DNA of 36,450 nt from Clostridia bacterium (GTDB lineage Bacteria; Bacillota; Clostridia; Oscillospirales; Acutalibacteraceae). Under the pieces are notes generated by a model. The model did not search any database. It had not been told where the DNA came from and saw nothing but the letters and a program-made list of their open reading frames with translations. The position numbers and the translations under genes are program-made. This document shows, piece by piece, positions 2,797 through 34,105 of this stretch (positions within the stretch are counted from its first letter, which is position 1; every line of letters begins with the position of its first letter). The stretch lies in the NCBI GenBank assembly GCA_017454815.1, contig JAFTCG010000025.1, forward strand, positions 1 to 36,450, read 5' to 3'.

Positions 2797-2828
2797 CGCT
2801 ACTTTTTTGTTGTTTGTTAAAAGAATGG

Positions 2829-3554: not shown

Positions 3555-3576
3555 GGAATCATCCTCCAAAAATATA

Positions 3577-12277: not shown

Positions 12278-13525
12278 TTACTTTTTTTTATAAATATTTC
12301 CGCCCTGACTTTTTATTATACCTGAAACTTCAAGCATAGTCAATGCCGTAAGTATTTCCGGCATCGAAACGCCTGTTTTTTCAAAAACCGAATCAGCGTC
12401 TGCGCATCCTCCTGCGATAGCTTCGTATACGGCCATTTCTGTTTCGCCCAACCATGCGGGCAGTTCCTCCTTATCGCTGTCGGAGTCGCTCGCGGGCGGG
12501 ATTTCCTCGAGCTCCTTTTTGCTGACGCCGGCGTTCTTGTTCTTTGTCACAACAACTTTGTCTGCGCCGTATTTTATGATCGAATAGTCGATCTTTTGGC
12601 CTTCTTCGTTCAGCAGATCGGATTCAACTTTATCCCATTTGACAAGATCGGTGTGTACGGCGGAAAACTGTCCGAGAATATCAAGCGAAGAAAACACGGG
12701 GATCGCGCCGTCCCTTATAAGTCCGACGGTCCCGAGGTGGATAAAGCTTGCCGCATTCCCGGGAACCGCAAAAACTTCTCTGCCGTATTCCGCCGCCAGA
12801 TTGGCGGTGATGAGAGAGCCGCTTTTTGCCGCCGCTTCAACGACGACGGTTCCCATGCCTAAAGCCGCAATGATCCTGTTCCTGATCGGGAAATTGATCG
12901 CCTTGACTCCCGCCGACGGGGGATATTCGCTGATGACGGCGCCTTTTTCCATGATGTCGTCCCTGATGATGTTGATCCCGTCGCGATAGTTGGCATTGAA
13001 CCCGCAGGCGATCACGGCGATCGTGCTGCCTCCCTCGCTCAAAACTCCGAGATGGGCGGCGCTGTCAATGCCGAGCGCACCTCCGCTCACGACGATAACT
13101 CCGGCGCGGCAAAGCGACGCCGCAAGGCTGCCCGCCATCCTGACGCCTTCGTCCGAAGCTCTTCGTGCTCCGACGATCGAGATCGTCATCTTGTCTTTCA
13201 TGCACTCTATGTTCCCCAGGGTATACAAAACGAGCGGATAGTTCGGCATACACATCAGAGCTTCAGGGTATTTTGCATTGTCGGGAGTAATGATCCCGCA
13301 GCCGATATCTTCGCATTCGGTTATAACTTTCTCGGCTTTGGCAAGACTTTTGTCGGACAGCTTGCCGATCTGCGCAGGCGTGAACGCCCCAGAGTAAACA
13401 AGCTGTTCATGCTTTGCGTCGAAGACGGCTTTCGGGTTTCCGAAATAGGCGATCCCTTCGTCAACCTTTGCTCCGCTCCCAAGGCAGAGCTGAAGCCAGA
13501 TCCAATAAACAGTCATCTCATTCAT
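12278..13525 (-). CDS. dprA: DNA processing protein DprA
   Basis: It loads RecA onto incoming single-stranded DNA during transformation and is widely conserved in non-competent bacteria as well. It has 415 residues. The Rossmann-like DprA core has SIVGARRASDEG and VVSGGALGIDSAAH (single-stranded DNA pocket), then ISEYPP, FPIRNRIIAALG and EAAAKSGSLITANLAAEYGR. A C-terminal winged-helix domain ends the protein (about 355-412). The ATG at 13525 overlaps the upstream methyltransferase stop by 4 bp. A linker of about 40 acidic residues (ASDSDSDKEE) joins core and winged helix. Confidence 0.95.
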   Translation of the reverse strand: MNEMTVYWIWLQLCLGSGAKVDEGIAYFGNPKAVFDAKHEQLVYSGAFTPAQIGKLSDKSLAKAEKVITECEDIGCGIITPDNAKYPEALMCMPNYPLVLYTLGNIECMKDKMTISIVGARRASDEGVRMAGSLAASLCRAGVIVVSGGALGIDSAAHLGVLSEGGSTIAVIACGFNANYRDGINIIRDDIMEKGAVISEYPPSAGVKAINFPIRNRIIAALGMGTVVVEAAAKSGSLITANLAAEYGREVFAVPGNAASFIHLGTVGLIRDGAIPVFSSLDILGQFSAVHTDLVKWDKVESDLLNEEGQKIDYSIIKYGADKVVVTKNKNAGVSKKELEEIPPASDSDSDKEELPAWLGETEMAVYEAIAGGCADADSVFEKTGVSMPEILTALTMLEVSGIIKSQGGNIYKKK

Positions 13526-14307
13526 CGAAGCATCTCCCACATTGTAATGCATGCGGCGGCAGAAGCGTTAAGAGACTGCGCCCTGCCGAGCATGGGGATC
13601 GTGATCCTTTCAAAGCAGGTTTCGATCACTTCTTTGCTCACGCCGTTGCCTTCGTTTCCGATCACGCAGATCGACCCGTTGCCGAAGCTGACGTCCGTGA
13701 TTTTCATGGCGTCCCTGTCCGTCACGGTTGCAAAGGTTTTGAACCCTGCCTCGTTTTGACGTTTCAAAAAGTCTACTGCGTCGTCGACAAGCCCAATGTC
13801 GAGTCTGAACAAAGCTCCCATCGAGCCGCGCAAAACCTTGGGGTTGAAAACGTCGCAGCAGCCGCAGAGGATCGCAGCGTCGATCCCGAGAGCCTCCGCA
13901 GTTCTGCAAACGGTGCCGAGATTCGACGGATCCTGAACGTTTTCGAGGAAGATATATTTTCCGCTCTTTGAAAGAGCGATCCCATCCGTGACGTTGTCGC
14001 ACCTTTTGCAAACGCAAAGCACGCCCTGCGGCGAGCCTGTGTCGGAAATTTTGGAGAATATCTCCTGCGAAACTTCATAGCTTGCATCGGAAGCGGCAAT
14101 GATTTTTCCCACCTCGTCGTGGTGTTTTGCGCTGATGTTTTCGGTCAGAAAGGTCTGTTCGATCCCGACGCCGCTCAGCACTGCGTCGAGGCAAATTCTG
14201 AGGCCTTCAATGCAGAAAAGCCCCTGTTCTTTTCTGAACGAGGACGACGAAACGAGCTTTGAAACATTTTTGATTTTGGGGTTGGTTTTAGAAACGATCT
14301 TTTCCAA
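13522..14307 (-). CDS. SPOUT (TrmH/SpoU) family RNA 2'-O-methyltransferase
   Basis: A 261-residue SAM-dependent ribose methyltransferase. The N-terminal substrate-binding domain (SKTNPKIKNVSKL...GLFCIEG) resembles the rRNA methyltransferase group. The knotted SPOUT catalytic domain has motif 1 ENVQDPSNLGTVCRTAEA, motif 2 CVIGNEGNGVS and motif 3 IPMLGRAQSLNASAAA. The start is TTG at 14307, because GGAGTGA lies at the right distance and the family usually begins M-x-I-x-S-K-x-N-P. A GTG at 14316 in frame lies within that ribosome site and is less likely. It overlaps dprA by 4 bp. The target nucleotide is unknown. Confidence 0.9.
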   Translation of the reverse strand: MEKIVSKTNPKIKNVSKLVSSSSFRKEQGLFCIEGLRICLDAVLSGVGIEQTFLTENISAKHHDEVGKIIAASDASYEVSQEIFSKISDTGSPQGVLCVCKRCDNVTDGIALSKSGKYIFLENVQDPSNLGTVCRTAEALGIDAAILCGCCDVFNPKVLRGSMGALFRLDIGLVDDAVDFLKRQNEAGFKTFATVTDRDAMKITDVSFGNGSICVIGNEGNGVSKEVIETCFERITIPMLGRAQSLNASAAACITMWEMLR

Positions 14308-16692: not shown

Positions 16693-18783
16693 ATGGAAAA
16701 TATCATCAATAACTACCTGCCGTTCGTGACTCTGGTTGGTTCCGTTATTGCTCTGATCTTTGCTCTCTTCACTGCAAAGAAGATCATGAAGTATTCTGAA
16801 GGAAACGAAAAAATGCAGAAGATCTCGGCGTCCATTCGCAAAGGAGCTAATGCTTACCTCAAAAGGCAGTACAGCATTGTGTCCGTTTTCTTTGCGTTCA
16901 TGTTCGTTGTGCTCTGCGTTATGGCTGCCTGCGGGCTTCTGACGTGGTTTGTACCGTTTGCGTTTGTAACGGGTGGATTCTTCTCGGGTCTTTCCGGCTT
17001 CGTAGGTATGAAGATCGCCACGCTCTCCAACAGCCGTACCGCTAACGCCTGCATTTCCAGTCTCAATAAAGGCTTGAGGGTCGCTTTCTCTGCGGGCTCG
17101 GTCATGGGCTTCACGGTCGTCGGGCTCGGACTTCTTGACATTTCCGTATGGTTTATTCTCCTCAAATTCGTGTTCAAGCTTCCCGTCGACGAGATCACAA
17201 GCGCTATGCTCACTTTCGGCATGGGCGCTTCCTCGATGGCTCTTTTCGCAAGAGTAGGCGGCGGTATTTTCACTAAAGCTGCCGACGTAGGCGCAGACCT
17301 CGTCGGTAAGGTCGAAGCGGGCATCCCCGAAGACGATCCCCGTAACCCCGCTGTTATCGCCGACAACGTGGGCGATAACGTAGGCGACGTTGCAGGTATG
17401 GGCGCCGACCTCTATGAAAGCTATGTCGGTTCCGTTATCTCCGCTTCCGCCCTGGGCGTTACTGCTTTTGGAGAAATGAAGGCCATGGCGCTCCCGATGG
17501 TTATGGCGGCGCTGGGTATCATCGCTTCGATAATCGGTTCTTTCCTCGTTCGAACGAGCGAAAAAGCTTCCCAGAAACAGCTTCTCAAAGCTCTTTCCAG
17601 AGGCACCAACACCAGCGCGATCATCATCGCAGTTCTCGCTCTGCCGCTCACATATTACATCCTCGGCACAGTCAGATACTATTTCGCAATTCTTGCAGGT
17701 CTTGTTGCGGGCGTTCTTATCGGTAAAGCCACCGAATATTTCACGTCCGACACATATAGACCCACCAAGAAGCTTTCCGACACAAGTAAGACCGGCGCAG
17801 CCACGATCATCATCGGCGGTATCAGCCTCGGTATGCTTTCAACGGTAGTTCCGATCATCATAGTCGGAGCTTGTATCCTCATCGCTTTCTTTGTCAGCGG
17901 CGGAACGGTCAGCAACCCCGATCACGGTCTTTACGGTATCGCTCTTGCGGCTGTCGGAATGCTCTCGACGCTCGGCATCACCCTTGCAACAGACGCTTAC
18001 GGTCCCGTTGCCGATAACGCAGGCGGTATTGCTGAGATGTCCGGCCTTGATCCCGAAGTCAGAGAGAGAACTGATGCTCTCGACTCCCTTGGCAACACAA
18101 CAGCTGCCACAGGTAAAGGCTTTGCGATCGGCTCTGCAGCCCTTACGGCTCTTGCGCTCGTCGCTTCCTACATCAACAAGGTCAACACGGTTTCGGGCGG
18201 AAGTGCCGACAAATCTTTCGACATCATGAACCCGATCGTTCTTGTCGGTCTGTTCATCGGCGCTTGCCTTCCGTTCATCTTTGCGGCTCTCACAATGGAT
18301 TCCGTCGGCAAAGCCGCTCAGTCCGTTGTTATCGAAGTCCGCAGACAGTTTAAAGAGATCGTCGGTCTCATGGACGGAAAAGCTGAGCCGGATTACGCTT
18401 CCTGCGTTGACCTTTGCACACGTTCGAGCCTTAAAGAGATGATCCTTCCGACGATCGTCGCGATCGTAACTCCCATTGCCGTGGGACTTCTCCTCGGCTA
18501 CAAAGGCGTTGTCGGACTTCTTGCAGGCGCAACAGCTTCCGGTTTCCTGATGGCGATCTTCATGTCCAACTCCGGCGGCGCATGGGATAACGCGAAGAAA
18601 TATATCGAAAGCGGCGTTCACGGCGGCAAAGGCAGCGACGCTCACAAAGCAGCCGTCGTAGGCGACACGGTCGGCGATCCTTTTAAAGACACTTCAGGTC
18701 CCTCCATCAACATCCTCATCAAGCTTCTTTCGATGGTCTCCATCGTCTTTGCAGCTCTCGTATATAACTTCCACCTGCTTTGA
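16693..18783 (+). CDS. hppA: Membrane-bound ion-pumping pyrophosphatase
   Basis: It hydrolyses cytoplasmic pyrophosphate and pumps H+ or Na+ across the membrane. The 696 residues with about 16 transmembrane helices match the family. Substrate and Mg2+ motifs are present: DVGADLVGKVEAGIPEDDP (198-216), ADNVGDNVGDVAGMGADLYE, and the C-terminal GDTVGDPFKDTSGPS. In GNTTAATGKG the residues Ala471 and Gly474 replace the Lys and Thr of K+-independent enzymes, so this belongs to the K+-dependent subclass. Whether it pumps Na+ or H+ was not resolved from sequence. The gene is monocistronic, with a good promoter, a strong ribosome site and a terminator. Recovering energy from pyrophosphate fits a low-energy fermenter. 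Confidence 0.97.
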   Translation: MENIINNYLPFVTLVGSVIALIFALFTAKKIMKYSEGNEKMQKISASIRKGANAYLKRQYSIVSVFFAFMFVVLCVMAACGLLTWFVPFAFVTGGFFSGLSGFVGMKIATLSNSRTANACISSLNKGLRVAFSAGSVMGFTVVGLGLLDISVWFILLKFVFKLPVDEITSAMLTFGMGASSMALFARVGGGIFTKAADVGADLVGKVEAGIPEDDPRNPAVIADNVGDNVGDVAGMGADLYESYVGSVISASALGVTAFGEMKAMALPMVMAALGIIASIIGSFLVRTSEKASQKQLLKALSRGTNTSAIIIAVLALPLTYYILGTVRYYFAILAGLVAGVLIGKATEYFTSDTYRPTKKLSDTSKTGAATIIIGGISLGMLSTVVPIIIVGACILIAFFVSGGTVSNPDHGLYGIALAAVGMLSTLGITLATDAYGPVADNAGGIAEMSGLDPEVRERTDALDSLGNTTAATGKGFAIGSAALTALALVASYINKVNTVSGGSADKSFDIMNPIVLVGLFIGACLPFIFAALTMDSVGKAAQSVVIEVRRQFKEIVGLMDGKAEPDYASCVDLCTRSSLKEMILPTIVAIVTPIAVGLLLGYKGVVGLLAGATASGFLMAIFMSNSGGAWDNAKKYIESGVHGGKGSDAHKAAVVGDTVGDPFKDTSGPSINILIKLLSMVSIVFAALVYNFHLL

Positions 18784-18797: not shown

Positions 18798-18827
18798 AAC
18801 ACCCGGGAAAACCCCGGGTGTTTTTTT
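18798..18827 (+). terminator. Terminator of hppA
   Basis: AACACCCGGG (18798-18807) pairs with CCCGGGTGTT (18813-18822) around 5 nt and runs into seven T (18821-18827). Confidence 0.95.
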
Positions 18828-18885: not shown

Positions 18886-20793
18886 TTATTCGTACGCTAT
18901 TTCGATCTCGTCCTTCTTGTAAACTGTAGCTTCTTTTCTTTTTCCGTACCATAATATGTCACGAGCATATTCGAATACATCATCGAAGACTCTCGCCGGC
19001 GTTATTATGATCTTGTTTTTTATCTTTTTTAACGGCCTATATTCATTTGAATAAACATCATCAAAATATGTTGAAAAATCGTATCTCAACTCAACCGAGT
19101 GTTTCTCTTCAAAAGGTTTTCTGAGCATAGCTGTTTGGTATTTTATCAAATCCTCAAATATGTCAACAGGAACATCAAACTGTGCCATATAACGGGTGAG
19201 CTCTTTCATTGAATTGTCAAAATCCATAACAGTTTCAAGGAATACAGCCTCCTCAAACTGCCATTGCAAATCACCCATTTTAGGATTATAGTAGTTTCTT
19301 CCGTCCTTCAGACAGTTATCGTGCCTTGTCTTTATATCTCTCCAAACACGTCCCAAATTGCTGTCGGAAGCAAGAAGAAAATCAATAAGCCCTGAATAGA
19401 AATCATAATAATCTGCAATTTTTTCTGCAAAAAGAAAAATAGCAAACAATCTCAACAGAGGAAATATGTGATACCCCTGTATACAATAGGAGAATAGGTT
19501 TGACATCGCCCAATCGTTCTTGTCCATTGTTTTTGTAGACCCAATCAGATATGAATACTCGGAAACCTCGTCTTCTTTTGGCCTTGTATGGCTTATTTGA
19601 TAAGGCACAACGATTTGTTGAATCTCGTGCTTTTTCATGTATTCCGGATCTGCCAGCGGTGAATTCGGCAGTATCTCGCACATATAGATATAAATGGAAC
19701 TGTGCTGACCGTTAGCAATAAGGGTGCAAATACCCCTACGAAAACTCTCGTATGTTTCCCCCGGCAGTCCAAGAATAAACTCAGAGTAGACTTTTATCCC
19801 TGCATCGTTGTATTTTTTTATCAGCTCAGAAAAATGGTCAAGGTCCAGATTTTTCCTTCCTATATTCTTCAGCACCTCGGGATTAAGCGACTGATAGGAA
19901 ATGGTTGCACCCTTGTCCATGTTGACTTCATTGAGCTTTTTGCAGATTTGGAAAACCCTGTCGATGCTGTTTTTTTCGTTGTTGACTCTGAAAAACTGCG
20001 GGTTGCCGTATTTTTTCTTTGCGTCAACGAGCATATCAACAATTTCAAGATCTCTTTCAAAGAGTCCGAAATTTGAATCCCCGCACCAGATGTAGGGTAC
20101 TTTGTTTTCTGCAATCCATAGTATTTCCGCTTGAATCTTTTCGATGGGAAAAAGCCTCATCCTTTTTCCATGAGTCCAGTCGCAATAGGCGCAGGAATAA
20201 GGGCATCCCCTGTTTGTTTCCAAAACGGTGTTGAATTCAAAATCAGGGTAGTGTTTAACGATCGAATCAAATACTCCGGAAGTGAACGGCGACGGGAACG
20301 TCGAAAGATCGCCGACACAGCCCTGCGGTGTTTTGATTATTTCTCCGTTATTTCGATAAGCTATTGAATGCACCTCGTCAATTTTACCCTCCGGGAGCTT
20401 CTTGAGCAGCTCGGCAAAGGTCTCCTCGCCTTCGCCAAAGAACAAAACGTCAATATAATCTTCATTTCTCAAAAAAGCATCGTTCGTTCCGACGCTGTGT
20501 CCGCCAAAAGCAATAATGCATTCGGGATATTTCTCTTTAACGCGTTTTGCGAGTGCTTTGTTGTATTGAGTGTTCCAAACATTGCAGGAAAAAGCCGCAA
20601 TATACGGATCCGTTATTCTCGAAAGTGCAAAATCCAGTTTATCTCTCGTAAAAATGATCTCAGGAAACTGATACTCGGAAGATATTTCGGGATGTTTAAG
20701 ACAATTTGCAACGATAGTTCCGACGCCATACGGCAAATAATATGAATTGCCGAAGTTGGCGCCGATTTGAACGAAATAAACCTTTTTCTTCAT
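18886..20793 (-). CDS. B12-binding-type radical SAM protein, copy 1
   Basis: A 635-residue protein of the COG1032 type. The N-terminal Rossmann-like cobalamin-binding region (about 1-140) has AFSCNVWNTQYNKALAKRVK, FGGHSVG and the class hallmark FFGEGEETFAELL; the classical DxHxxG cobalamin-ligand motif is absent. The radical SAM core carries Cys197, Cys201 and Cys204 (GCPYSCAYCDWTHGKR). LGLPGETYESF follows, and then a C-terminal region of about 250 residues with no domain I recognise, ending in WYGKRKEATVYKKDEIEI. The gene is divergent from a GT2-like gene. A close paralogue with the same neighbour starts at 23689. The reaction is unknown; methylation or rearrangement of a glycan or lipid is plausible. 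Confidence 0.85.
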   Translation of the reverse strand: MKKKVYFVQIGANFGNSYYLPYGVGTIVANCLKHPEISSEYQFPEIIFTRDKLDFALSRITDPYIAAFSCNVWNTQYNKALAKRVKEKYPECIIAFGGHSVGTNDAFLRNEDYIDVLFFGEGEETFAELLKKLPEGKIDEVHSIAYRNNGEIIKTPQGCVGDLSTFPSPFTSGVFDSIVKHYPDFEFNTVLETNRGCPYSCAYCDWTHGKRMRLFPIEKIQAEILWIAENKVPYIWCGDSNFGLFERDLEIVDMLVDAKKKYGNPQFFRVNNEKNSIDRVFQICKKLNEVNMDKGATISYQSLNPEVLKNIGRKNLDLDHFSELIKKYNDAGIKVYSEFILGLPGETYESFRRGICTLIANGQHSSIYIYMCEILPNSPLADPEYMKKHEIQQIVVPYQISHTRPKEDEVSEYSYLIGSTKTMDKNDWAMSNLFSYCIQGYHIFPLLRLFAIFLFAEKIADYYDFYSGLIDFLLASDSNLGRVWRDIKTRHDNCLKDGRNYYNPKMGDLQWQFEEAVFLETVMDFDNSMKELTRYMAQFDVPVDIFEDLIKYQTAMLRKPFEEKHSVELRYDFSTYFDDVYSNEYRPLKKIKNKIIITPARVFDDVFEYARDILWYGKRKEATVYKKDEIEIAYE

Positions 20794-20827
20794 CGAAATC
20801 CTGTCCTTTCCTGCATGCTCACTTGTT

Positions 20828-20856
20828 ATTATACATCATTATCCCATATATTGCAA
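20828..20856 (-). promoter_or_regulatory. Promoter of radical SAM copy 1
   Basis: On the minus strand TTGCAA (20856-20851), 17 bp, TATAAT (20833-20828). Copy 2 uses the same TTGCAA -35. Confidence 0.65.
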
Positions 20857-20894
20857 CTTGATTATTGCATTTTAGCGCCGTTATATTATAATGT

Positions 20895-20923
20895 TTGACT
20901 TTTCACGCCGGATGTGTCATAAT
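20895..20923 (+). promoter_or_regulatory. Promoter of GT2-like gene, copy 1
   Basis: TTGACT (20895-20900), 17 bp, CATAAT (20918-20923) with an extended TG upstream of the -10. It points away from the radical SAM promoter; the two -35 boxes are 38 bp apart. Confidence 0.65.
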
Positions 20924-20955
20924 ATTTTTTGATCAACAAACTAATGGAGTATATA

Positions 20956-21732
20956 ATGTGTACTTTTGACAAATTGACAATAATCGTTACTGCTTCAAAC
21001 GAGAAAAGCTCGTTGGGAGAAACGTTGAGAAAATTGGCTGAACTTTGCGATCCAAAGGATATTGCAGAAGTTATTGTTTTTCTTAAATCGGAAAACTGCT
21101 CGGCAAAATCGGATTATGAAAAAACGTTACAAGATTTATGTTTCCCCTTTCCTATCAGATCATATATCCAGACGATTCCAGGATATGCGGAAATGTTTTA
21201 TGAAGCTCCTACGCTTGTTCATTCTTCCCATTTTTTATGCATAGGCGCCGATCTTGAAATGGATCCTGATTCAATACCTGCCCTGATAGAAACCAGCAAA
21301 GCAAACCCCGAAGCGATCGTATGCGCTTCAAAGTTTGCCAAAGGATCAACAAGAGAGGGCTACGGTTTTTTTCATATGATAGCCGTCCGTTTCGTGAATT
21401 TTATTGTGAGAAAAATTATCGGTTCTAACGGAACAGAACTATTTTCAACCGTTGAAATACACCCTACCAAAACCCATTTTGAAATGAATTTTTCAAGCGA
21501 TCCGAGATCATTTTACGGTTTTACAATAAAACAAGTAATTTGCGGCGTCCCTTACATCGAGATCCCCACGAAATATGTCAAAAACAATAAAGAAAAAACC
21601 AATTTCGGAACCTTTGACTACCTTAAGCTCACCCTCCCGCTTATTGATGCTGCGATAAGATTAAAAATTGAAAAGATCAAAAACGATCGCAAAAACAAAC
21701 AAGAGAAGAAAAAGAAGAAAAGCACCCTGTGA
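20956..21732 (+). CDS. GT2-like glycosyltransferase, copy 1
   Basis: A 258-residue soluble GT-A fold protein resembling polyprenyl-phosphate glycosyltransferases (DPM1/ArnC type). KLTIIVTASNEKSSLGETLRKL is the nucleotide-binding start. GADLEMDPDSIPALI (from residue 97) corresponds to the metal-binding DxD region, and VNFIVRKIIGS resembles the acceptor-side segment of DPM synthases. There are no transmembrane helices; the C-terminal 20 residues are very rich in lysine and may contact membrane or nucleic acid. ATG at 20956 is placed by GGAG at 20946-20949; the upstream in-frame extension to 20929 overlaps the promoter region. The sugar donor and acceptor are unknown. Confidence 0.75.
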   Translation: MCTFDKLTIIVTASNEKSSLGETLRKLAELCDPKDIAEVIVFLKSENCSAKSDYEKTLQDLCFPFPIRSYIQTIPGYAEMFYEAPTLVHSSHFLCIGADLEMDPDSIPALIETSKANPEAIVCASKFAKGSTREGYGFFHMIAVRFVNFIVRKIIGSNGTELFSTVEIHPTKTHFEMNFSSDPRSFYGFTIKQVICGVPYIEIPTKYVKNNKEKTNFGTFDYLKLTLPLIDAAIRLKIEKIKNDRKNKQEKKKKKSTL

Positions 21733-21744
21733 TTCCGGGTGCTT
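21720..21744. terminator. Shared terminator between convergent GT2 copy 1 and radical SAM copy 2
   Basis: AAGCACCC (21720-21727) pairs with GGGTGCTT (21737-21744) around 9 nt. The hairpin includes the GT2 stop codon. The minus-strand side runs into TTTTCTTCTTTTTC, so it terminates the radical SAM gene better than the GT2 gene. Confidence 0.7.
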
Positions 21745-21775
21745 CGTTATATAATAATCGGATTTGTTTTGACGC

Positions 21776-23689
21776 TCACTGCTCATGCAGAATTTCAATT
21801 TCATCGTTCTTGTAGCTTGAGGCCTCGTTTCTTCTTCCGTACCAAACAACTTCGCGGGCGTAGGTCTCGAAGTCTTCAAACGACCTTTTCGGAGTTATTT
21901 TTATTGTCGTCTTTGCGGCTTGCAAAGGCAGACTGTTCTTGTTTTTTATGTTTTCAAAAAAGTTCGGGAAGTCGTATTTCAGGCGAACGGTGTTTTCTTT
22001 CCCGCCTGCGTCCCTGACCAGCGCCATCTGGTATTTTATCAGATCGTCGAGAACGTCCCGTTCGATACCATACCGTTCAAGATACGGCTTAAGCTCGGTA
22101 AAAGTCGATTCAAGGTCGTACACCGCCTGCAAAAACAATCCCTCTTCATAGGTCCAATTCGTGTTGCCGATTCTTGGGTCGGAATAAGCCTTTCCTTCTT
22201 TGAGGGAATTGTCCAGCCTGGATTTCATGTCTTTCAAAACATTTCCGATAACCCCGGATGAAGCCAGCAGATACTCTGCCAAGCCCGAATAAAACTTAAA
22301 ATAATCCGCTTTCTTTTCGTTGTAAAGATAGATCGCGATGAATCTTAACAGCGGGAAAGTATGAAATCCCAATGCGCACACCGAAAATAGATTGGATCTG
22401 ACCCAGTCGTCCTTGTCCATTGAATAAGTCGATCGGATAAGCTCGGAATACTCTTCAACCTCTTCCGACGAGTTTGCCATGCCGTGATAGTTTCTGTATT
22501 TGACTTTCACGGTTTCGATTTTATATTTCGCCATATAATCGGGGCTTGCCATCAAGGCGATCGGTAGTATCTCGCACAGATAGACGCAGATCGTATGATG
22601 TTCGCCGTTCTCAAAAAGCGCACAGATGCCTTTGCAAAAGCTCTCGTACGTTTCGCCGGGAAGCCCGAGAATCAGCTCGGAATACGTCGGTATGCCTGCC
22701 TCGGAATACCTTTTCATCAAGCTCGAAAAATGTTCAAGCGTCAGGTTTTTTCTTCCGATATTTTCAAGCGCTTCGGGGCAAAGTGTCTGGAAAGACATGG
22801 TAACGCCCTTGTCCATTCCGTGCTCGTTGAGCTTCTTGCACACTTCAAAAACACGGTCGTCGCTGTTCTTGTCATAGTTGACCCTGAGCACCTGAGGATA
22901 TGAGCATTGCTGCTTTTTTTCGACCAGATAATCAACAATCTCAAGATCCCTTTTGAATAATCCGAAGTTTGAATCGCTGCAATAGACAAAACAGATTTTG
23001 TGTTCCGCCATCCAGTCTATCTCGGCTCTGATTTTCTCCATCGGGAAAAACCGCGTTCTTCTGCCGTGAGTCCATTCGCAGTAGGCGCAGGAATACGGAC
23101 AACCGCGGTTTGTTTCAATAACAACGTCCAGCTGATAATCTTTGTATTTTTCAACGATCGAATCAAAAACCCCTGTCGTATACGGCGAGGGAAGCTCCAA
23201 AAGATCCTCGACGCAGCCCTTTGGAGTGATAAAAATCTCACCGTCTTTTCTGTATGCGACCGATTTTACTTCGCCCAATTTGCCCTCGGGAAGCTTTTTG
23301 AGCATCTCGGCGAAAGCGGTCTCACCCTCGCCGATGATGGTAATGTCGATATATTCCTCTTCCTGAAGCAACATGTCGTCCTCGCCCGCGCTGTGCCCTC
23401 CGAAGACGATAACGCATCCGGGATATTTCTCTTTTACACGTTTTGCGAGCGCCTTATTGTATTCTATGTTCCACACGTTGCACGAAAAAGCTACCATATA
23501 CGGCTCGACGATTCTTGCAAGCGCGTCGTCGAGTTTGTCTCTTGTGAACAGTATTTCGGGGAAATTGTATTGAGAAGATATTTCGGGATATTTCAGGCAA
23601 TTTGCAATAATAGCGCCGGCGGCATAAGGAATATATATTGTTTTCCCGTAGCTGCTGCCCAGCTGCACAAAATAAACATTCTTCTTCAT
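21776..23689 (-). CDS. B12-binding-type radical SAM protein, copy 2
   Basis: A 637-residue paralogue of the protein at 18886-20793, alike over the full length. The N-terminal region has AFSCNVWNIEYNKALAKRVK, FGGHSAG and IIGEGETAFAEML. The radical SAM cysteines are again Cys197, Cys201 and Cys204 (GCPYSCAYCEWTHGRR). LGLPGETYESF and the C-terminal tail WYGRRNEASSYKNDEIEI are conserved. Start ATG at 23689 with GGAGG upstream. The few changes near the active site (CDW to CEW) suggest a related but perhaps distinct substrate. It is divergent from its own GT2-like gene. Function is unassigned. Confidence 0.85.
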   Translation of the reverse strand: MKKNVYFVQLGSSYGKTIYIPYAAGAIIANCLKYPEISSQYNFPEILFTRDKLDDALARIVEPYMVAFSCNVWNIEYNKALAKRVKEKYPGCVIVFGGHSAGEDDMLLQEEEYIDITIIGEGETAFAEMLKKLPEGKLGEVKSVAYRKDGEIFITPKGCVEDLLELPSPYTTGVFDSIVEKYKDYQLDVVIETNRGCPYSCAYCEWTHGRRTRFFPMEKIRAEIDWMAEHKICFVYCSDSNFGLFKRDLEIVDYLVEKKQQCSYPQVLRVNYDKNSDDRVFEVCKKLNEHGMDKGVTMSFQTLCPEALENIGRKNLTLEHFSSLMKRYSEAGIPTYSELILGLPGETYESFCKGICALFENGEHHTICVYLCEILPIALMASPDYMAKYKIETVKVKYRNYHGMANSSEEVEEYSELIRSTYSMDKDDWVRSNLFSVCALGFHTFPLLRFIAIYLYNEKKADYFKFYSGLAEYLLASSGVIGNVLKDMKSRLDNSLKEGKAYSDPRIGNTNWTYEEGLFLQAVYDLESTFTELKPYLERYGIERDVLDDLIKYQMALVRDAGGKENTVRLKYDFPNFFENIKNKNSLPLQAAKTTIKITPKRSFEDFETYAREVVWYGRRNEASSYKNDEIEILHEQ

Positions 23690-23737
23690 CCCTGACCTCC
23701 GACGACTGTTCCTGCGTAAACATTGCCTACCTGTATT

Positions 23738-23766
23738 ATTTTACTATATTTTGCCTTGTTTTGCAA
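23738..23766 (-). promoter_or_regulatory. Promoter of radical SAM copy 2
   Basis: On the minus strand TTGCAA (23766-23761), 17 bp, TAAAAT (23743-23738). It is the same -35 hexamer and spacing as copy 1. Confidence 0.65.
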
Positions 23767-23808
23767 CCGCAAATCGTTTTGAAATCGGGCAAACTTCTTC
23801 AATATGAT

Positions 23809-23837
23809 TTGACATTTCGGACTTCTTATGCAATAAT
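23809..23837 (+). promoter_or_regulatory. Promoter of GT2-like gene, copy 2
   Basis: TTGACA (23809-23814), 17 bp, AATAAT (23832-23837) with an extended TG. A perfect 8-bp palindrome GTGTACAC (23841-23848) lies at the expected transcription start. Confidence 0.65.
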
Positions 23838-23868
23838 AAAGTGTACACATGTTGCATGGAGCGTTGAT

Positions 23869-24636
23869 ATGATAAGTTTTGAAAAACTGACGATAGTGGT
23901 TATGGCGTCAAACGAGCAGGATCTGCTCAGAGAAACCCTGAAGCTACTCTCCCGGCTGTGCGACCCAAAAGATATTGAAGAAATAATCGTTTTTCTCAAA
24001 TCCGAGGATTGCCCCGCAAAATCAGAATATGATAGGATAGTTTCGGAGGGCTTCGTTCCCTTCCCGATGAGGGATTACATCCAGACCATCCATGGCTTTG
24101 ACCAGATGTTTTATGAAGCTCCGAGGCTTGTTGAATCATCCCATTTCCTGCTCATCGGAGCGGATCTCGAAATGGATCCCCATTCTGTCCCCGAAATGAT
24201 AAGAAAATCCAAGGAAAACCCCGGCGCGATCGTTTGCGCCTCAAAGTTTGCCGAAGGATCTTCAAGGGAAAAATACGGTTTCCTGCATATGTTATGTGTA
24301 CGTTTTGTGAATTTTGTCGTCGGAAAGATTATTCACTCCGATGCTACCGAAATACTTGCAACGTTCCAGATCTATCCCACCGAAATTCACAGAAAAATGA
24401 ATTTTGTAAGCGAAACGAGAGCTTACTACAGCTTTACGATCAAGCCGATCGTTTACGGGGTCGATTATATCGAAATACCCACAAAATACGTGTGCAGAGA
24501 TGAAGGGATCTCCAACCTCGGTCTGTTGCATTACATGAAAATGGGATTCATGTTTATCGACACGGCGCACCGGCACAAAGCCGAGAAAAAGCGGGAAGAC
24601 AAGCTCTCAAAGAAAAACCGAATACAAAAGCAATAA
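23869..24636 (+). CDS. GT2-like glycosyltransferase, copy 2
   Basis: A 255-residue paralogue of the protein at 20956-21732. KLTIVVMASNEQDLLRETLKLL opens the GT-A fold, and GADLEMDPHSVPEMI again starts at residue 97. FAEGSSREKYGF, VNFVVGKIIHS and DYIEIPTKYV are shared with copy 1. The C-terminus is basic (HRHKAEKKREDKLSKKN). ATG at 23869 has GGAG 8 nt upstream; the open frame extends far upstream to 23638 across the divergent promoters and is rejected. The consistent pairing with a radical SAM gene suggests the two act on one pathway, perhaps on a lipid-linked sugar. Confidence 0.75.
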   Translation: MISFEKLTIVVMASNEQDLLRETLKLLSRLCDPKDIEEIIVFLKSEDCPAKSEYDRIVSEGFVPFPMRDYIQTIHGFDQMFYEAPRLVESSHFLLIGADLEMDPHSVPEMIRKSKENPGAIVCASKFAEGSSREKYGFLHMLCVRFVNFVVGKIIHSDATEILATFQIYPTEIHRKMNFVSETRAYYSFTIKPIVYGVDYIEIPTKYVCRDEGISNLGLLHYMKMGFMFIDTAHRHKAEKKREDKLSKKNRIQKQ

Positions 24637-24691: not shown

Positions 24692-25516
24692 TCAGCGAAG
24701 ATTAATTTTCTTCGACATCAGATGATTTGTCGCAAAGAACATTCCGATCGACAGGATAATCTGGAGGATCAGTCCGCCAAGTCCGAACGTGTTTGAAACT
24801 TCGTTCATACTCTTGAACGCAAGCTTCAAGCCGTCGCCGCTGATGAACAATGACAGCGGGAAATAAACCATAACAAGCGAAGAAACGATTTGGATGACGA
24901 TATATACCGCCACAAAAATCAGTATTCCTCCGAAGAATCCGAGCTTGTTGAACGGCTTGACGTTGGAAAGCGTCATCGAGAAGAAGACTTCCGCAACGAT
25001 CACCAATATCGTGATAAAGCCGTAGACCAGAGCCGCCGCAATGACCTTTGCTATCGCCGAAGCGGTCGGAACTCCTCCGCTTGACGTCATCGCAGAAATC
25101 ATATCAAGCAATTCGTCAAAATCTGCGCCGAGGCTCTCGCCGAGCTTCGCTTTCGCATACCAGATTATTCCGACGACCGTTCCGACAAGGATCAAATAGC
25201 TGATCGCAAGCCATGAAAAAGAAACGATCGCCTTGGAAAGGAGAATATCATTCGACTTTGCAGGGAGAGTGTAGCTCAGATATCCCTGATCGCTGTAAAG
25301 CGACTTGTTGAAATAGTTCATCATGATAATCGTTGTGATCAGAACAAGCCCCATGACCATAACAACGAAAGAGAAAGAGCCGATGAACTTCAAAAACTTG
25401 ATATTAAACAGATAAGATAACGCCGTCACTGCAAACGAGATGAACGCTATGAGGTAGACGACAAGCATCGAATGCGCGCTGCCGATAAAATCATGCTTAA
25501 TCAATTTCCCAAGCAA
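24692..25516 (-). CDS. ABC transporter permease
   Basis: A 274-residue membrane protein with about six hydrophobic segments and no conserved catalytic motif. It is the membrane partner of the ATPase encoded just upstream. YSDQGYLSYTLPAKSNDILLSKAI is characteristic of Firmicutes permeases of the BcrB/ABC-2-like group (only short parts cited: SYTLPAKS, LLSKAI). The start is TTG at 25516, since GGAGGTG lies 9 nt upstream and the protein then begins MLGKLIKHDF; the frame continues to 25546 inside the ATPase gene. It overlaps that gene by 20 bp. The substrate is unknown; export or peptide-stress roles are possible. Confidence 0.8.
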   Translation of the reverse strand: MLGKLIKHDFIGSAHSMLVVYLIAFISFAVTALSYLFNIKFLKFIGSFSFVVMVMGLVLITTIIMMNYFNKSLYSDQGYLSYTLPAKSNDILLSKAIVSFSWLAISYLILVGTVVGIIWYAKAKLGESLGADFDELLDMISAMTSSGGVPTASAIAKVIAAALVYGFITILVIVAEVFFSMTLSNVKPFNKLGFFGGILIFVAVYIVIQIVSSLVMVYFPLSLFISGDGLKLAFKSMNEVSNTFGLGGLILQIILSIGMFFATNHLMSKKINLR

Positions 25517-26237
25517 ATCGGAACACCTCCTTAAACAAGTCTTCAACGGTTTTTCCTTCGTCCGTTATCACATTTGCGTCGGTATCGACAAGCACGTTGC
25601 CGTTGCCGATCATCAGAACGTGGTCGAACGCTCTTTCAACGTCATGGATGAGATGAGTTGACATTATGACCGTTGCATCTTTTGCATAGTTTTTCATGAT
25701 GACGTCAAGAATGTATGACCTTGAAGCGGGGTCAACGCCGCCCAGCGGCTCATCGAGAACGTACATCTTCGCGTTCCTGCTCATTACAAGGATGAGCTGG
25801 AGCTTTTCCTGCTGACCTTTGGACATCGTCTTGATTTTCTGATCCATCGAAAGGTTGAAGTGCTGTATCATCTGCGCAGCTTTTTCCTTGTCGAAATCCT
25901 CATAAAAATCAGCGAAGTATTTCAGCGCGTCCTTCGGTTTCATCCATTCGGCAAGATACGTCCTTTCGGGCATATATGCAACGATCTTCTTGGATTCGAC
26001 CCCCGGCCTTTTGCCGTTAATGAGGACTTCGCCGGTGTAGTCGTTGATAAGTCCGGTAAGAATTTTCAAAAGAGACGTTTTTCCGCAGCCGTTAGGTCCC
26101 AGAAGACCGATGAACTGTCCCCTCTTGAATTTAAGAGAAACGTCCCTCAAAACCTGGTTTGAACCGTAGGATTTGCTCAGATGATTTATCTCAACGATAT
26201 AATCATCTCTCTGAAAAACTGTATTCCGGTTTTCCAA
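25497..26237 (-). CDS. ABC transporter ATP-binding protein
   Basis: A 246-residue ABC-2-type ATPase. Walker A GPNGCGKT is at residues 47-54. The signature motif is MSKGQQEKL, an SKGQQ variant of LSGGQ common in this subgroup. Walker B is MYVLDEPLGGVDP and the switch His is in MSTHLIHDVE. The start is TTG at 26237 with GGAGGG 6 nt upstream. The first 12 residues precede the usual fold start YIVEINHLSKSYG. It has its own promoter and is translated together with the permease. No GntR-type regulator is adjacent. Confidence 0.93.
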   Translation of the reverse strand: MENRNTVFQRDDYIVEINHLSKSYGSNQVLRDVSLKFKRGQFIGLLGPNGCGKTSLLKILTGLINDYTGEVLINGKRPGVESKKIVAYMPERTYLAEWMKPKDALKYFADFYEDFDKEKAAQMIQHFNLSMDQKIKTMSKGQQEKLQLILVMSRNAKMYVLDEPLGGVDPASRSYILDVIMKNYAKDATVIMSTHLIHDVERAFDHVLMIGNGNVLVDTDANVITDEGKTVEDLFKEVFRFAWEID

Positions 26238-27119: not shown

Positions 27120-28871
27120 TTACTTGTTATACAGCGATCTCTTAACGTAGGACGTATGGAGGATCTCATGCGACTTGTGGCTTCCGGGCTCTCCGAAGAA
27201 CTCATCATATACCATCTTGATGGCGGGGTTATCCTGAGATTTTCTGAGAGGAAGGTCAAGGTCTGCTTCGTAGATCGCTTTTGCTCTGAGAGCCTTGAGA
27301 TCGTTGAAGTTGCGTACCGAAGCCGGCTGAGTGGGCTGACCGCCGCCGTTGACGCATCCGCCGGGGCACGCCATGATCTCGACGAAAGTATAGTCGCTCT
27401 TGCCGTCTCTGATGTCTTCCATGATCTTCTGGGCGTTCTTCAGACCGCTTGCGGCAGCAACCTTGATCTTAAGGCCTGCAACGTCGTATTCGGCTTCCTT
27501 GATGCCCTTTGTTCCGCGGACTTCCTTGAAGTCGACGTTGTCGAGTTTTTCGCCTGTAATGGCTTCGACCGCATATCTGAGAGCTGCTTCCATAACGCCG
27601 CCCGTTGCGCCGAAGATGACGCCTGCGCCGGAGCCTTCGCCGATGGGCGAGTCAAACTGCTCGTCGGGGAGAAGGTTGAAGTTGATGCCTGCCGTCTGGA
27701 TCATTCTTGCAAGCTCTCTCGTTGTGAGAGAGATATCAACGTCCGGATAGCCTGCCGCAGACTGGTCGTCACGCTTGTTTTCAAACTTCTTTGCTGTGCA
27801 GGGCATGATAGCAACGACTACCATCTTTGCAGGGTCGATGCCGTATTTCTGCGCATACCACGTCTTCATCGTTGCGCCGAACATCTGCTGGGGAGATTTA
27901 CAGCTTGAAAGGTGGTCAAGCTGATCCGGGAAATAATGCTCGCAATATTTTACCCAACCGGGTGAGCAGGAAGTGATCATCGGGAGAGTTCCGCCCTTTG
28001 TCACTCTTTCGATAAGCTCTGTTGCCTCTTCCATGATGGTGAGGTCAGCGGAGAAGTCGGTGTCGAAAACTTTGTCGAATCCGAGCCTTCTGAGAGCTGC
28101 CGCCATCTTGTAAGTAACGTTGGTGCCTACGGGAAGGCCGAAAGCTTCGCCGAGAGTTACACGGATGGACGGAGCTGTGTTGACGATAACGAACTTGTCG
28201 GGATCCTGGATAGCCGCAAATACTTCGGCTGTCTGATCCTTTTCGTACAATGCGCCGACGGGGCAGGCAACGATGCACTGGCCGCAGGAAACGCAGGAGT
28301 AATTGTCGATATCCATTTCAAACGCAGAGCCGATATGGGTGTCCATACCTCTTGCGTTAGCGCCGATGACGGAGATAGCCTGGTTGTCGCAGGCGGCAAC
28401 GCAGCGGCGGCAGAGGATACATTTGTTGTTGTCTCTGATCATGTGCGGAGCGCTTTCGTCAAGCTCATAAGTGGGCTTAAAGCCGTCGAACTTGCCTTCA
28501 TCGTCAACGCCGTACTCTTTGCAGAGTTTCTGAAGCTCGCAGTTTCCGCTCCTGATGCAGGAAAGGCATTTTCTTGCGTGAGTGGAGAGGATGAGCTGGA
28601 GAGTAGTTTTTCTCGATTGACGGATCTTTTCGGTGTTGGTGAAAACTTCCATTCCCTCGTTTACGGGGAACACGCAGGCGGAAACAAGCCTGTTGCCTCT
28701 GGGGCCTGCGACTTCGACCATGCAGAAACGGCATGCGCCGATCTCGTTCATGTCTTTAAGGAAGCAAAGCGTCGGGATCTCAATGCCTGCAATTCTTACG
28801 GCTTCAAGGATGGTGCTTCCTGCCGGTACGCTGTAATCAATACCGTTGATTTTAATGTTTACGTTTTCCAT
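27120..28871 (-). CDS. hndD: [FeFe] hydrogenase catalytic subunit (HndD/HydA, group A)
   Basis: It makes or oxidises H2 at an H-cluster as part of an electron-bifurcating NAD- and ferredoxin-linked complex. The 583 residues show the trimeric/tetrameric enzyme layout. A [2Fe-2S] domain comes first (Cys36, 47, 50, 66), then a His-ligated [4Fe-4S] (HARKCLSCIRSGNC). A two-[4Fe-4S] ferredoxin domain follows (CILCRRCVAAC, CVSCGQCIVACP). H-cluster motifs are L1 TSCSPGW (Cys302), L2 MPCTAKKFE (Cys358) and L3 ACPGGCVNGGG (Cys502 and Cys506). L1 has Ser where many enzymes have a second Cys. The C-terminal small-subunit region ends near HTSYVKR. ATG at 28871 follows AAAGGAGAG. Last gene of the hydrogenase operon. 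Confidence 0.96.
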   Translation of the reverse strand: MENVNIKINGIDYSVPAGSTILEAVRIAGIEIPTLCFLKDMNEIGACRFCMVEVAGPRGNRLVSACVFPVNEGMEVFTNTEKIRQSRKTTLQLILSTHARKCLSCIRSGNCELQKLCKEYGVDDEGKFDGFKPTYELDESAPHMIRDNNKCILCRRCVAACDNQAISVIGANARGMDTHIGSAFEMDIDNYSCVSCGQCIVACPVGALYEKDQTAEVFAAIQDPDKFVIVNTAPSIRVTLGEAFGLPVGTNVTYKMAAALRRLGFDKVFDTDFSADLTIMEEATELIERVTKGGTLPMITSCSPGWVKYCEHYFPDQLDHLSSCKSPQQMFGATMKTWYAQKYGIDPAKMVVVAIMPCTAKKFENKRDDQSAAGYPDVDISLTTRELARMIQTAGINFNLLPDEQFDSPIGEGSGAGVIFGATGGVMEAALRYAVEAITGEKLDNVDFKEVRGTKGIKEAEYDVAGLKIKVAAASGLKNAQKIMEDIRDGKSDYTFVEIMACPGGCVNGGGQPTQPASVRNFNDLKALRAKAIYEADLDLPLRKSQDNPAIKMVYDEFFGEPGSHKSHEILHTSYVKRSLYNK

Positions 28872-28889
28872 TATTGCACTCTCCTTTCC

Positions 28890-30692
28890 TTAACCTTTGC
28901 TGATTGCGCCGAATTTGCAGTTGTCCATACAAACGCCGCACTTGATACATTTTGAAGTGTCGATAACATGGGGTTCTTTTACGCTGCCGCTGATCGCGCC
29001 GACGGGACATTTTCTCGCGCAAAGCGTGCATCCCTTACACTTGTCCGGATCGATCTTGTAGCTGAGAAGGGCTTTACAAACGCCTGCGGGGCATTTTTTG
29101 TCAACGACGTGAGCAATGTATTCGTCCTTGAAGAAACGAAGCGTTGCAAGCACGGGGTTGGGAGCTGTCTGTCCGAGACCGCACAGCGAGTTTTCTTTAA
29201 TGTAGTAAGCGAGTTTTTCAAGCTCATCGAGGTCTTCGAGAGTGGCTTTGCCCTCTGTGATCTTGTCGAGCATTTCGAGCATTCTTCTCGTGCCGATTCG
29301 GCAGGGAGAACATTTTCCGCATGATTCGTCAACAGTGAAGTTGAGGAAGAATTTTGCGATGTCGACCATACAGTTGTCTTCGTCCATGACTATAAGTCCG
29401 CCGGAACCCATCATACAGCCGATAGCCGTAAGGTTGTCGTAGTCGATCTCGGTGTCCATGAGGGAGGCCGGGATACATCCGCCGGAAGGTCCGCCCGTCT
29501 GAGCCGCCTTGAACTTCTTGCCGTTGGGAACGCCGCCGCCGATGACTTCGATGATGTCGCGAAGCGTTGTTCCCATGGGGATCTCAACAAGACCTGTGTT
29601 CTTGATCTTTCCGCCGAGGGCGAAAACTTTAGTGCCCTTCGATCTTTCGGTACCCATGGAGTTAAAGAACTCTGCGCCCTTGAAGATGATCTGGGGGATA
29701 TTTGCGAACGTTTCAACGTTGTTTTCTGTGGTGGGTTTGCCGAAGAGACCTTTTACTGCCGGATAAGGCGGACGGGGTCTGGGCTCGCCGCGGTTGCCTT
29801 CAATAGAGGTCATGAGAGCAGTTTCTTCGCCGCAAACGAATGCGCCTGCGCCAAGACGGACGTGAAGATCGAAGTCAAATCCGGAGTCGAAGATGTTTTT
29901 GCCGAGGAGTCCATATTCACGGGCGTCGGCAATAGCTTTCTTGAGCCTTGCAACAGCTATAGGATATTCCGCACGAACGTAGATATAGCCTTCGGTCGCG
30001 CCTGTGGCATAACCGCAAATCGCCATAGCTTCGATAATGCAGTGCGGGTCGCCTTCAAGAACGGAACGATCCATGAATGCGCCCGGGTCGCCTTCGTCGG
30101 CGTTGCAGACAACGTACTTCTGGTCAGCCTGGTTCTTGGAAGTGAATTCCCATTTCATGCCTGTCGGGAATCCGCCGCCGCCTCTGCCGCGAAGTCCGGA
30201 ATCCTTGACAACCTTGATGACGTCTTCGGGAGTCATTTCCGTCAGAACTTTGCCCAGAGCAGCATAGCCGTCCATCGCTATGTATTCATCAATGCTTTCG
30301 GGATTGATAACGCCACAGTTGCGAAGCGCAACTCTCTTCTGAGCTTTGTAGAAAGTTGTGTCGTTGAGCGAGATGTTTTTCAACTGCTCTTCGTCAACTT
30401 CATATCCAACGTCTGTGTAGGCAAGGCGCTCGACAACTCTGCCCTTGAGAAGATGTTCGGAAACAATTTCCTCAACGTCTTCTTTCTTGACCTTGCTGTA
30501 GAACGTGCCGTCGGGATAAACGATAACGACAGGGCCGAGAGCGCAAAGTCCGAAACAACCTGTTTTTACGACTTTGATTTCCTCGGTAAGGCCTTTTGCG
30601 TCGATCTGGGAAGTAAATTCCTCAACCAGCGCGCCGCTTCCGGATGACGTGCAGCCTGTTCCGCCGCATATCAACACCTGAGAACGAATCAT
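28890..30692 (-). CDS. hndC: NADH-binding flavoprotein subunit of hydrogenase (HndC/HydB, NuoF-like)
   Basis: It binds FMN and NAD(H) and is the site of flavin-based bifurcation in this complex. It has 600 residues. An N-terminal thioredoxin-like [2Fe-2S] domain (CGGTGCTSSGSG, KTGCFGLCALGP) is followed by the NuoF core. That core has GLRGRGGGGFPTGMKW and CNADEGDPGAFMDR for the FMN and NADH sites, RPPYPAVKGLFGKPTTENN, and the [4Fe-4S] motif ESCGKCSPCRIGT. A C-terminal two-[4Fe-4S] ferredoxin domain (CKGCTLCARKCP, CIKCGVCMDNC) is typical of the hydrogenase version and absent from complex I NuoF. ATG at 30692 follows GGAGGT. It is 18 bp upstream of hndD. Confidence 0.96.
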   Translation of the reverse strand: MIRSQVLICGGTGCTSSGSGALVEEFTSQIDAKGLTEEIKVVKTGCFGLCALGPVVIVYPDGTFYSKVKKEDVEEIVSEHLLKGRVVERLAYTDVGYEVDEEQLKNISLNDTTFYKAQKRVALRNCGVINPESIDEYIAMDGYAALGKVLTEMTPEDVIKVVKDSGLRGRGGGGFPTGMKWEFTSKNQADQKYVVCNADEGDPGAFMDRSVLEGDPHCIIEAMAICGYATGATEGYIYVRAEYPIAVARLKKAIADAREYGLLGKNIFDSGFDFDLHVRLGAGAFVCGEETALMTSIEGNRGEPRPRPPYPAVKGLFGKPTTENNVETFANIPQIIFKGAEFFNSMGTERSKGTKVFALGGKIKNTGLVEIPMGTTLRDIIEVIGGGVPNGKKFKAAQTGGPSGGCIPASLMDTEIDYDNLTAIGCMMGSGGLIVMDEDNCMVDIAKFFLNFTVDESCGKCSPCRIGTRRMLEMLDKITEGKATLEDLDELEKLAYYIKENSLCGLGQTAPNPVLATLRFFKDEYIAHVVDKKCPAGVCKALLSYKIDPDKCKGCTLCARKCPVGAISGSVKEPHVIDTSKCIKCGVCMDNCKFGAISKG

Positions 30693-30714
30693 AATTTATA
30701 CCTCCAAGAATAAT

Positions 30715-31080: not shown

Positions 31081-31136
31081 ACTGCATACCCTTCCTTTGT
31101 TAGTTTTGTTATATAGGCATAAGCCTGATTTTTAAT

Positions 31137-31211
31137 TATAACCTATTTAAATATAACCTGATAAATTATAAACCGATTTGCTTTATTAACTTATTTGATC
31201 GTAACCGATTT
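31137..31211. repeat. Degenerate TATAACC direct repeats upstream of hndB
   Basis: TATAACC at 31137-31143 and 31152-31158, and TATAAACC at 31167-31174, have a period of 15 bp. Weaker copies follow: TATTAACTTATTT at 31184-31196, and AACCGATTT at 31203-31211, which also occurs at 31171-31179. On the minus strand they give TATAAT-like boxes, but no good -35 partner is visible. The last copy lies in the end of the upstream gene. Confidence 0.4.
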
Positions 31212-34082: not shown

Positions 34083-34105
34083 ATTTTTTCACCAATTTTT
34101 GCTGT

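Follow-up and report, generated by a model that had tools for sequence, protein, structure and literature searches.

A TokK-type cobalamin-dependent radical SAM enzyme paired with a glycosyltransferase: a recurrent, here duplicated, module with a possible role in making an unusual surface sugar

TokK and ThnK are cobalamin-dependent radical S-adenosylmethionine (SAM) methylases of the carbapenem pathway. According to excerpts of PMC12846815, the related enzyme CysS acts on an aryl ether carried on pantetheine, and its C-terminal domain helps to form the substrate cavity. Trp76 of TokK and Trp75 of CysS sit under the cobalt (excerpts of PMC13331322 and PMC12846815). Here we analyzed a stretch of 36,450 nucleotides (contig JAFTCG010000025.1 of assembly GCA_017454815.1; hereafter the window) from a Clostridia bacterium of the family Acutalibacteraceae, whose assembly is 1.7 Mb in size, 79.7% complete and resembles a metagenome-assembled genome. 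The window contains two side-by-side copies of one gene pair, each consisting of a TokK/CysS-type radical SAM enzyme (rSAM1 or rSAM2, together rSAM) and a small putative glycosyltransferase (GTa or GTb, together GT). An earlier, sequence-only reading of the window had placed two full-length units at 18886-21732 and 21776-24636, and the open reading frames (ORFs) confirmed both.

Both rSAM1 and rSAM2 matched Pfam Radical_SAM above its cutoff, and against Pfam B12-binding (cutoff 32.1 bits) rSAM2 scored above the cutoff with 36.6 bits and rSAM1 just under it with 30.0 bits. The CxxxCxxC motif for the [4Fe-4S] cluster lies at Cys197/201/204 in both copies, exactly where the sequence-only reading had put it, and all three cluster cysteines are conserved across the family in 132 of 133 copies, with a gap in the remaining one. 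Trp73 aligns with TokK Trp76, and this position is Trp in 130 of the 133 copies (two gaps and one Tyr). A profile of 31 family members matched TokK over positions 4-582 (E 9.2e-149) and CysS with E 1.4e-81, and matched OxsB (E 8e-9) and AprD4 (E 2e-8) weakly. Structure prediction, one of the checks suggested at the outset, gave an rSAM1 model from eight sequences (predicted local distance difference test, pLDDT, 88.1) that superposed on TokK over the full length with template modeling (TM) scores of 0.89/0.86, and on CysS with 0.77/0.78. The superposition includes the N-terminal cobalamin-binding Rossmann domain as well as the C-terminal domain (query TM 0.89 over 679-682 alignment columns of TokK). 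The genes had been described as B12-type radical SAM genes; that was right and can be sharpened, since the profile, the fold match, the conserved cysteines and the Trp under the cobalt together indicate that rSAM is a TokK/CysS-type (class-1) cobalamin-dependent radical SAM enzyme. From this class, methylation is the expected reaction. The best NCBIfam match of the two rSAMs was the KedN5 family NF033712 (E 2e-71 and 2e-74), with best stretches covering only residues 58-380 and 20-399; membership in that family was rejected, the scores being 241 and 251 bits against a curated cutoff of 700.

GTa and GTb were weakly above the cutoff of Pfam Glycos_transf_2 (29.7 and 25.5 vs 23.3). The best PDB match of a 21-member GT profile was the dolichyl-phosphate mannose (DPM) synthase 5mlz (E 4.2e-19, positions 6-233), followed by ArnC, and a low-confidence GT model (pLDDT 62.8, three sequences) placed DPM synthase (DPMS), ArnC and GtrB within the first eight ranks in both Foldseek and VIA-align. 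The motif GADLEMDP begins at residue 97 in both GTs, as had been read from the sequence, and E16, Q72, H92, D99 and E202 are invariant in all 21 GT rows, both window copies keeping all five. Judged by these matches, GT is a divergent DPMS-like enzyme of glycosyltransferase family 2 (GT2); because nearly all members lack the first Asp of the DAD motif of DPMS, we call it DPMS-like rather than a proven DPMS. Its likeness to polyprenyl-phosphate glycosyltransferases fits the lipid-linked glycan that the sequence-only reading had guessed at.

The two genes go together in other genomes. In 300 genomes of the same family, rSAM was found in 33 and GT in 31; 29 genomes held both, four rSAM only, two GT only and 265 neither (Fisher p 1e-33), which argues that the pairing is not due to chance. 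Both counts are assumed to refer to the same 300-genome draw (identical settings, matching handles), and rSAM presence may be under-counted because three to four candidates were scored per genome, as also in the order, class and phylum samples. In the two GT-only genomes the GT matches are weak and form a separate long branch. Among 60 near genomes, the host's own included, eight carried rSAM and five GT, all five lying within those eight. Outside the family rSAM is rare: apart from the host genome, it was found in 1 of 393 genomes of the order sample, 1 of 390 of the class sample and 0 of 397 of the phylum sample, and the one in the order sample (G270) belongs to the same family. A total of 156 rSAM copies were present in 36 rSAM-positive genomes (35 of one family), with up to 10 copies per relative genome, often in tandem, and GT matches were present in 31 genomes. 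Of 44 GT matches, at least 39 have an rSAM no more than 3 kb away and 33 no more than 500 bases away, a lower bound given that 90 of the 156 rSAM places were used for the count. Homologues of the two genes are thus usually neighbors, as the initial proposal required. The divergent orientation seen in the window is not general: of 40 GTs in the fetched stretches, 29 lie on the strand of the nearest rSAM and seven are divergent (including both window GTs, paired with their divergent partners), and four have no rSAM in the stretch. Co-occurrence and co-divergence together rule out a chance neighborhood of rSAM and GT. In a search for carriage by phages, rSAM1 had no match among 50,697 phage records at E 1e-20. 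Matches to rSAM1 were found in 14 plasmid records, with at most 32% identity.

The tandem arrangement in the window goes back to an old event in which the entire module was duplicated. The protein identity is 57.6% between rSAM1 and rSAM2 (635 aligned residues, two gap columns) and 57.3% between GTa and GTb (255 residues, three gap columns). At the nucleotide level the copies share 64% (rSAM) and 63% (GT) identity, which rules out an assembly artefact or a very recent duplication, and third-position identities of 41% and 44%, respectively, indicate that the duplication is old. In the GT tree, GTa and GTb are sisters (100/100) joined to the GT of one G270 locus, L107 (100/97); in the rSAM tree (FastTree without bootstrap), the window copies are sisters (99) joined to the partner of that GT, the L107 rSAM (100). 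Therefore, the pair was duplicated as a unit, and independent origins of the two copies, which would have contradicted the sequence-only reading, are ruled out by both trees. Beyond this locus the partners match less simply: the GTs closest to those of the window belong to other genomes than the closest rSAMs do. Over 30 adjacent pairs, GT and rSAM distances were correlated (Mantel r 0.51, reached in 0 of 5000 permutations; 0.52 without the window), the distances being plain fractions of differing residues and GTa and GTb having been matched by hand to their divergent partners. In the 21 rows with an extra rSAM in the stretch, r was 0.65 for the adjacent rSAM and 0.34 for a random other rSAM (standard deviation 0.08, 41 draws), indicating that GT tracks its own rSAM beyond shared genome ancestry. 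The recurrence of the pairing and its joint duplication bear out the view of the pair as a unit, with the qualification that these systems often comprise several rSAMs, the one-to-one pair being their small form.

We compared 49 stretches around these genes, window included, which hold 0-6 rSAM copies each in same-strand runs of up to six. The members of the rSAM arrays fall largely into separate clades common to several genomes, as would be expected with a separate task for each member. Sugar genes accompany the module in many relatives: group C1, an HddA-like kinase or a fusion of FKP type, occurs in 16 stretches; C3, a nucleotidyltransferase frequently found as a fusion with a GmhB-like phosphatase, in 11; C4, short-chain dehydrogenase/reductase (SDR) enzymes, in 10; and C5, a cupin, in eight. 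Most of the multi-spanning membrane proteins, found in 21 stretches (C0) and six stretches (C6), have no Pfam family, and these two groups together occur in 21 of 45 rSAM stretches. A joint Pfam scan of 132 of the 149 neighbor genes (seven FKP-like and 10 partial or doubtful ones left out) returned Epimerase 14 times, RmlD 14, NTP transferase five, cupin five and GHMP kinase four, making nucleotide-sugar genes the commonest recognized neighbors. Gene calls in the related loci are the longest ORFs and include some antisense frames. For the subclade of rSAMs to which the window belongs, as read from the rSAM tree, C3, C4 or C5 (NTP transferase, SDR, cupin) occurs in 9 of 11 non-window stretches vs 2 of 33 stretches without the subclade (p 4e-6); this comparison was made after manual removal of one doubtful C3 frame in L045, a choice that works against the reading. 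Around L107, the closest module, lie a C0 membrane protein and a further membrane protein, a second GT2, an NTP transferase and a radical SAM protein of group C2. This group is a second radical SAM family of about 460-680 amino acids (25 copies in 14 stretches), some of which match Pfam B12-binding, and its copies are interleaved with GT and TokK-like copies in L035, L094, L095, L097, L100, L101, L102, L125 and others.

We propose that each unit is a two-enzyme module that would make and load an unusual sugar. The iron-sulfur cluster of rSAM would cleave SAM into a 5'-deoxyadenosyl radical, which would abstract hydrogen at an unactivated carbon, either in the sugar itself or in its activated form; methylcobalamin would give its methyl group to that carbon and be re-methylated by a second SAM. 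GT, soluble or membrane-peripheral, would then take the sugar off its nucleotide and load it onto polyprenyl phosphate, and from the lipid-linked sugar multi-spanning membrane proteins would assemble a glycan on the cell surface. Taken as a whole chain, from C-methylation through loading to a surface glycan, this proposal falls a little short of an even chance. The two copies probably act on different sugars or on different positions of one pathway. The original interpretation, a cobalamin-dependent radical modification of a sugar or lipid-linked glycan, is partly supported. The 156 TokK-type relatives, mostly near a glycosyltransferase of the lipid-carrier type, point to a use of this chemistry other than in antibiotic pathways, the use in view being the building of sugars that could not be predicted from known pathways. 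They offer enzymologists new cobalamin radical enzymes with a natural paralogue series for studying the choice of site, and for a little-known bacterial family they lead to the prediction of C-methylated envelope sugars dependent on vitamin B12.

Several observations weigh against this proposal. Coupling is not strict, as G004, G019, G540 and G622 have rSAM only, and of the other five GT matches among the 44, one is 20 kb off on the same contig and four are on contigs without a listed rSAM. The TokK and CysS structures carry pantetheine-linked small molecules, not sugars (titles of the structures; excerpts of PMC12846815), and the plasmid homologues of Streptomyces and Sinorhizobium adjoin adenylation-domain genes (three of the 14 plasmid homologues were inspected, one from Azospirillum included). 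Among the matches listed, none of the four window proteins reached an NCBIfam cutoff. A Pfam scan of 20 window neighbors recognized no sugar or glycan gene, the sugar-activation groups C1, C3, C4 and C5 are absent from 23 of the 45 rSAM stretches, the window among them, and neither the FKP-like protein nor the C0 family was found elsewhere in the host's own, 79.7%-complete assembly. In GT, the second Asp of the DAD motif is present in 21 of 21 rows and the first in one of 21, D-x-D/E is kept in 15 of 21 rows, and the R..G.S residues near the C-terminus are absent in GTa and kept in GTb. Moreover, no transmembrane part was found in 35 of 40 GTs, both window copies included (no 19-residue window above hydropathy 1.6). 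Some DPM1 proteins lack C-terminal membrane helices.

These features of GT, together with the low confidence of its model, would also suit an ordinary GT2 whose role is to attach the modified sugar to a glycan as it grows, and the window pair, with no recognized pathway gene beside it, may also be a remnant cut off from the full pathway. Against this reading, DPMS is the clear best profile match of GT, and the window GTs have kept their five invariant residues and full length after long divergence; we judge it unlikely, although it survives better than the following ones.

It is also conceivable that rSAM alters a lipid, either the polyprenyl carrier or a membrane lipid, which GT glycosylates to give a modified glycolipid. 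The nearest solved GT relatives do act on polyprenyl phosphates, rSAM has weak matches to cobalamin-dependent radical SAM lipid families (HpnR, HpnJ, ladderane-type), and a group of CrtI-like flavin adenine dinucleotide (FAD) oxidoreductases occurs in three stretches. However, the predominance of nucleotide-sugar genes among the recognized neighbors and the several paralogues per array, hard to explain with one lipid, make this quite improbable. Equally improbable in our view is a diffusible natural product such as an antibiotic-like glycoside, for which rSAM would methylate a small-molecule scaffold and GT would glycosylate it. The characterized relatives TokK and CysS are antibiotic enzymes (PMC12846815, in excerpt), the adenylation-domain genes beside the Streptomyces and Sinorhizobium homologues point the same way, and the distribution within the family is patchy (33/300). 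On the other hand, the 25 commonest of 111 neighbor families include no nonribosomal peptide synthetase, polyketide synthase or carrier-protein family, GT is DPMS-like, and nearly half of the rSAM stretches (21/45) contain the C0/C6 membrane groups. A role of rSAM on the sugar without methylation, that is, epimerization, dehydration or ring contraction as catalyzed by some other cobalamin or radical SAM enzymes, is the most doubtful reading: class-1 cobalamin enzymes include the non-methylase OxsB (excerpts of PMC13331322), which like AprD4 is weakly matched by the rSAM profile, but the methylases TokK and CysS are far closer by the E values given above and share the Trp under the cobalt.

The plasmid homologue of Azospirillum sp. 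TSA2s (plasmid p2, NZ_CP039644.1; L127 11935-13974) is annotated just as 'radical SAM protein'. This TokK-like protein covers 98% of rSAM1, and its gene sits among glycosyltransferases, a GDP-mannose dehydratase and an epimerase. Since this homologue lies in a glycan cluster and those of Streptomyces and Sinorhizobium lie beside adenylation-domain genes, the wider rSAM family seems to serve both kinds of pathway.

The C-methylated surface glycan proposed here can be extended to the arrays. Banks of TokK-type enzymes, up to 10 per genome and mostly old separate lineages, might methylate different sugar carbons, and a dedicated DPMS-like GT might load each product, yielding hyper-C-methylated hydrophobic surface glycans from modules that are swapped, like antigen loci, at a fixed address upstream of dprA. 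We regard this larger scheme as rather unlikely.

In all three rSAM stretches with dprA in view (the window, G557 and G546, from three genera; window 12278-13552 and 18886-20793, L109 2432-9924 and L112 11244-19050), an rSAM-GT module is located 4.3-5.3 kb upstream of this gene, and the rSAMs of these modules belong to different clades. The address may possibly be a fixed site for module swapping, which with three cases is offered as a lead only. A second rSAM-GT pair of G270 (L108 8521-18301) has in its vicinity genes that by eye look minD-like and mgsA-like in sequence, and homologues of these are also present at 2279-3584 of the window. The CrtI-like oxidoreductases lie in three clusters (L101 6906-9478, L102 15731-18273 and L106 1262-2794), and in two of the three the gene adjoins one grouped with a 2Fe-2S ferredoxin-domain protein, which is unexpected for a pure sugar pathway.

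The features of the two units are listed in Table 1. In the ORF list, the GT frames reach upstream to TTG codons at 20929 (GTa) and 23638 (GTb); a GGAG upstream and the alignment with relatives point to 20956 and 23869, respectively, as the starts. Promoter-like pairs face both ways at matching places in the two divergent spacers, and those facing GT have a TG in both. The sequence-only reading had held that the divergent promoters were retained with the pair. The consensus sites agree with this, but the spacers align barely better than shuffled ones, which attained the local score of 16 in 40 of 500 trials, so that the case for retained promoters comes from the consensus sites alone. No cobalamin riboswitch reached the gathering score in the window or in any of four related loci, and control by one was rejected.

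Table 1 Features of the two tandem units and their spacers in the window
Feature	Position	Strand	Remarks
rSAM1, TokK/CysS-type cobalamin-dependent radical SAM enzyme, 635 aa	18886..20793	-	Trp73 (= TokK Trp76), Cys197/201/204, Trp206
Divergent spacer of module 1	20794..20955	.	promoter-like pairs, consensus matches only
Promoter-like TTGCAA-17-TATAAT towards rSAM1	20856-20828	-	consensus match only
Promoter-like TTGACT-17-CATAAT towards GTa	20895-20923	+	consensus match only
GTa, putative divergent DPMS-like GT2, 258 aa	20956..21732	+	
rSAM2, in-paralogue of rSAM1, 637 aa	21776..23689	-	
Divergent spacer of module 2	23690..23868	.	promoter-like pairs, consensus matches only
Promoter-like TTGCAA-17-TAAAAT towards rSAM2	23766-23738	-	consensus match only
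Promoter-like TTGACA-17-AATAAT towards GTb	23809-23837	+	consensus match only
GTb, in-paralogue of GTa, 255 aa	23869..24636	+	
Terminator-like stem, 10-11 pairs, between the H+-pyrophosphatase gene and the module	18798..18822	.	T-tail on + reading

The modules are flanked by a membrane H+-pyrophosphatase gene (16693-18783) on one side and by an ATP-binding cassette (ABC) transporter ATPase gene with a multi-spanning partner (24692-26237) on the other; the multi-spanning protein encoded at 24692-25546 has no Pfam family. The G+C content is 0.40 and 0.38 in the module 1 genes and 0.46 and 0.44 in the module 2 genes, compared with 0.485 in the window, module 1 (20794-21732) being richer in A+T than module 2 (21776-24636). 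Elsewhere in the window, a thiamine pyrophosphate (TPP) riboswitch at gathering score lies at 1495-1608 and a tRNA at 717-790, and the block at 27120-34534 contains [FeFe]-hydrogenase, NuoF/NuoE-like, PHP and histidine-kinase-like ATPase genes. Such [FeFe]-hydrogenase/NuoF/NuoE blocks are common in fermentative anaerobes.

Compared with described systems, rSAM is most similar to TokK, sharing with it a profile match over most of the length, the fold, the CxxxCxxC motif, the Trp under the cobalt and the C-terminal domain at 29-30% identity in the structural alignment. TokK belongs to a beta-lactam cluster; in contrast, the rSAMs here form paralogue arrays with a DPMS-like GT and often with sugar genes. 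CysS, the cystobactamid methylase, has the same architecture and axial Trp at 21-22% identity in the structural alignment, and we know of no sugar-gene context around it. The KedN5 family is the nearest curated family, yet both rSAMs are far below its cutoff. PfDPMS (5mlz) and ArnC/GtrB are the best sequence-profile and fold matches of GT, which differs from them by the missing first Asp of DAD (20/21), by having no transmembrane segment in most members and by its pairing with a radical SAM enzyme. GDP-heptose enzymes (HddA-, GmhB- and HddC-like) and FKP of fucose salvage are matched by neighbors in relatives, and no such gene was recognized beside the window modules; the HddA-, HddC- and FKP-like neighbors are below the curated cutoffs, and the GmhB_yaeD model TIGR00213 was just reached (150.3 vs 149.6). 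We found no paper pairing the two enzyme types and no named system of this composition in the literature searched, which left most subscription journals outside, and sugar terms had no match in PMC9692996. Both enzyme types are known, and what is new is the combination of TokK-type paralogue arrays with a dedicated DPMS-like GT.

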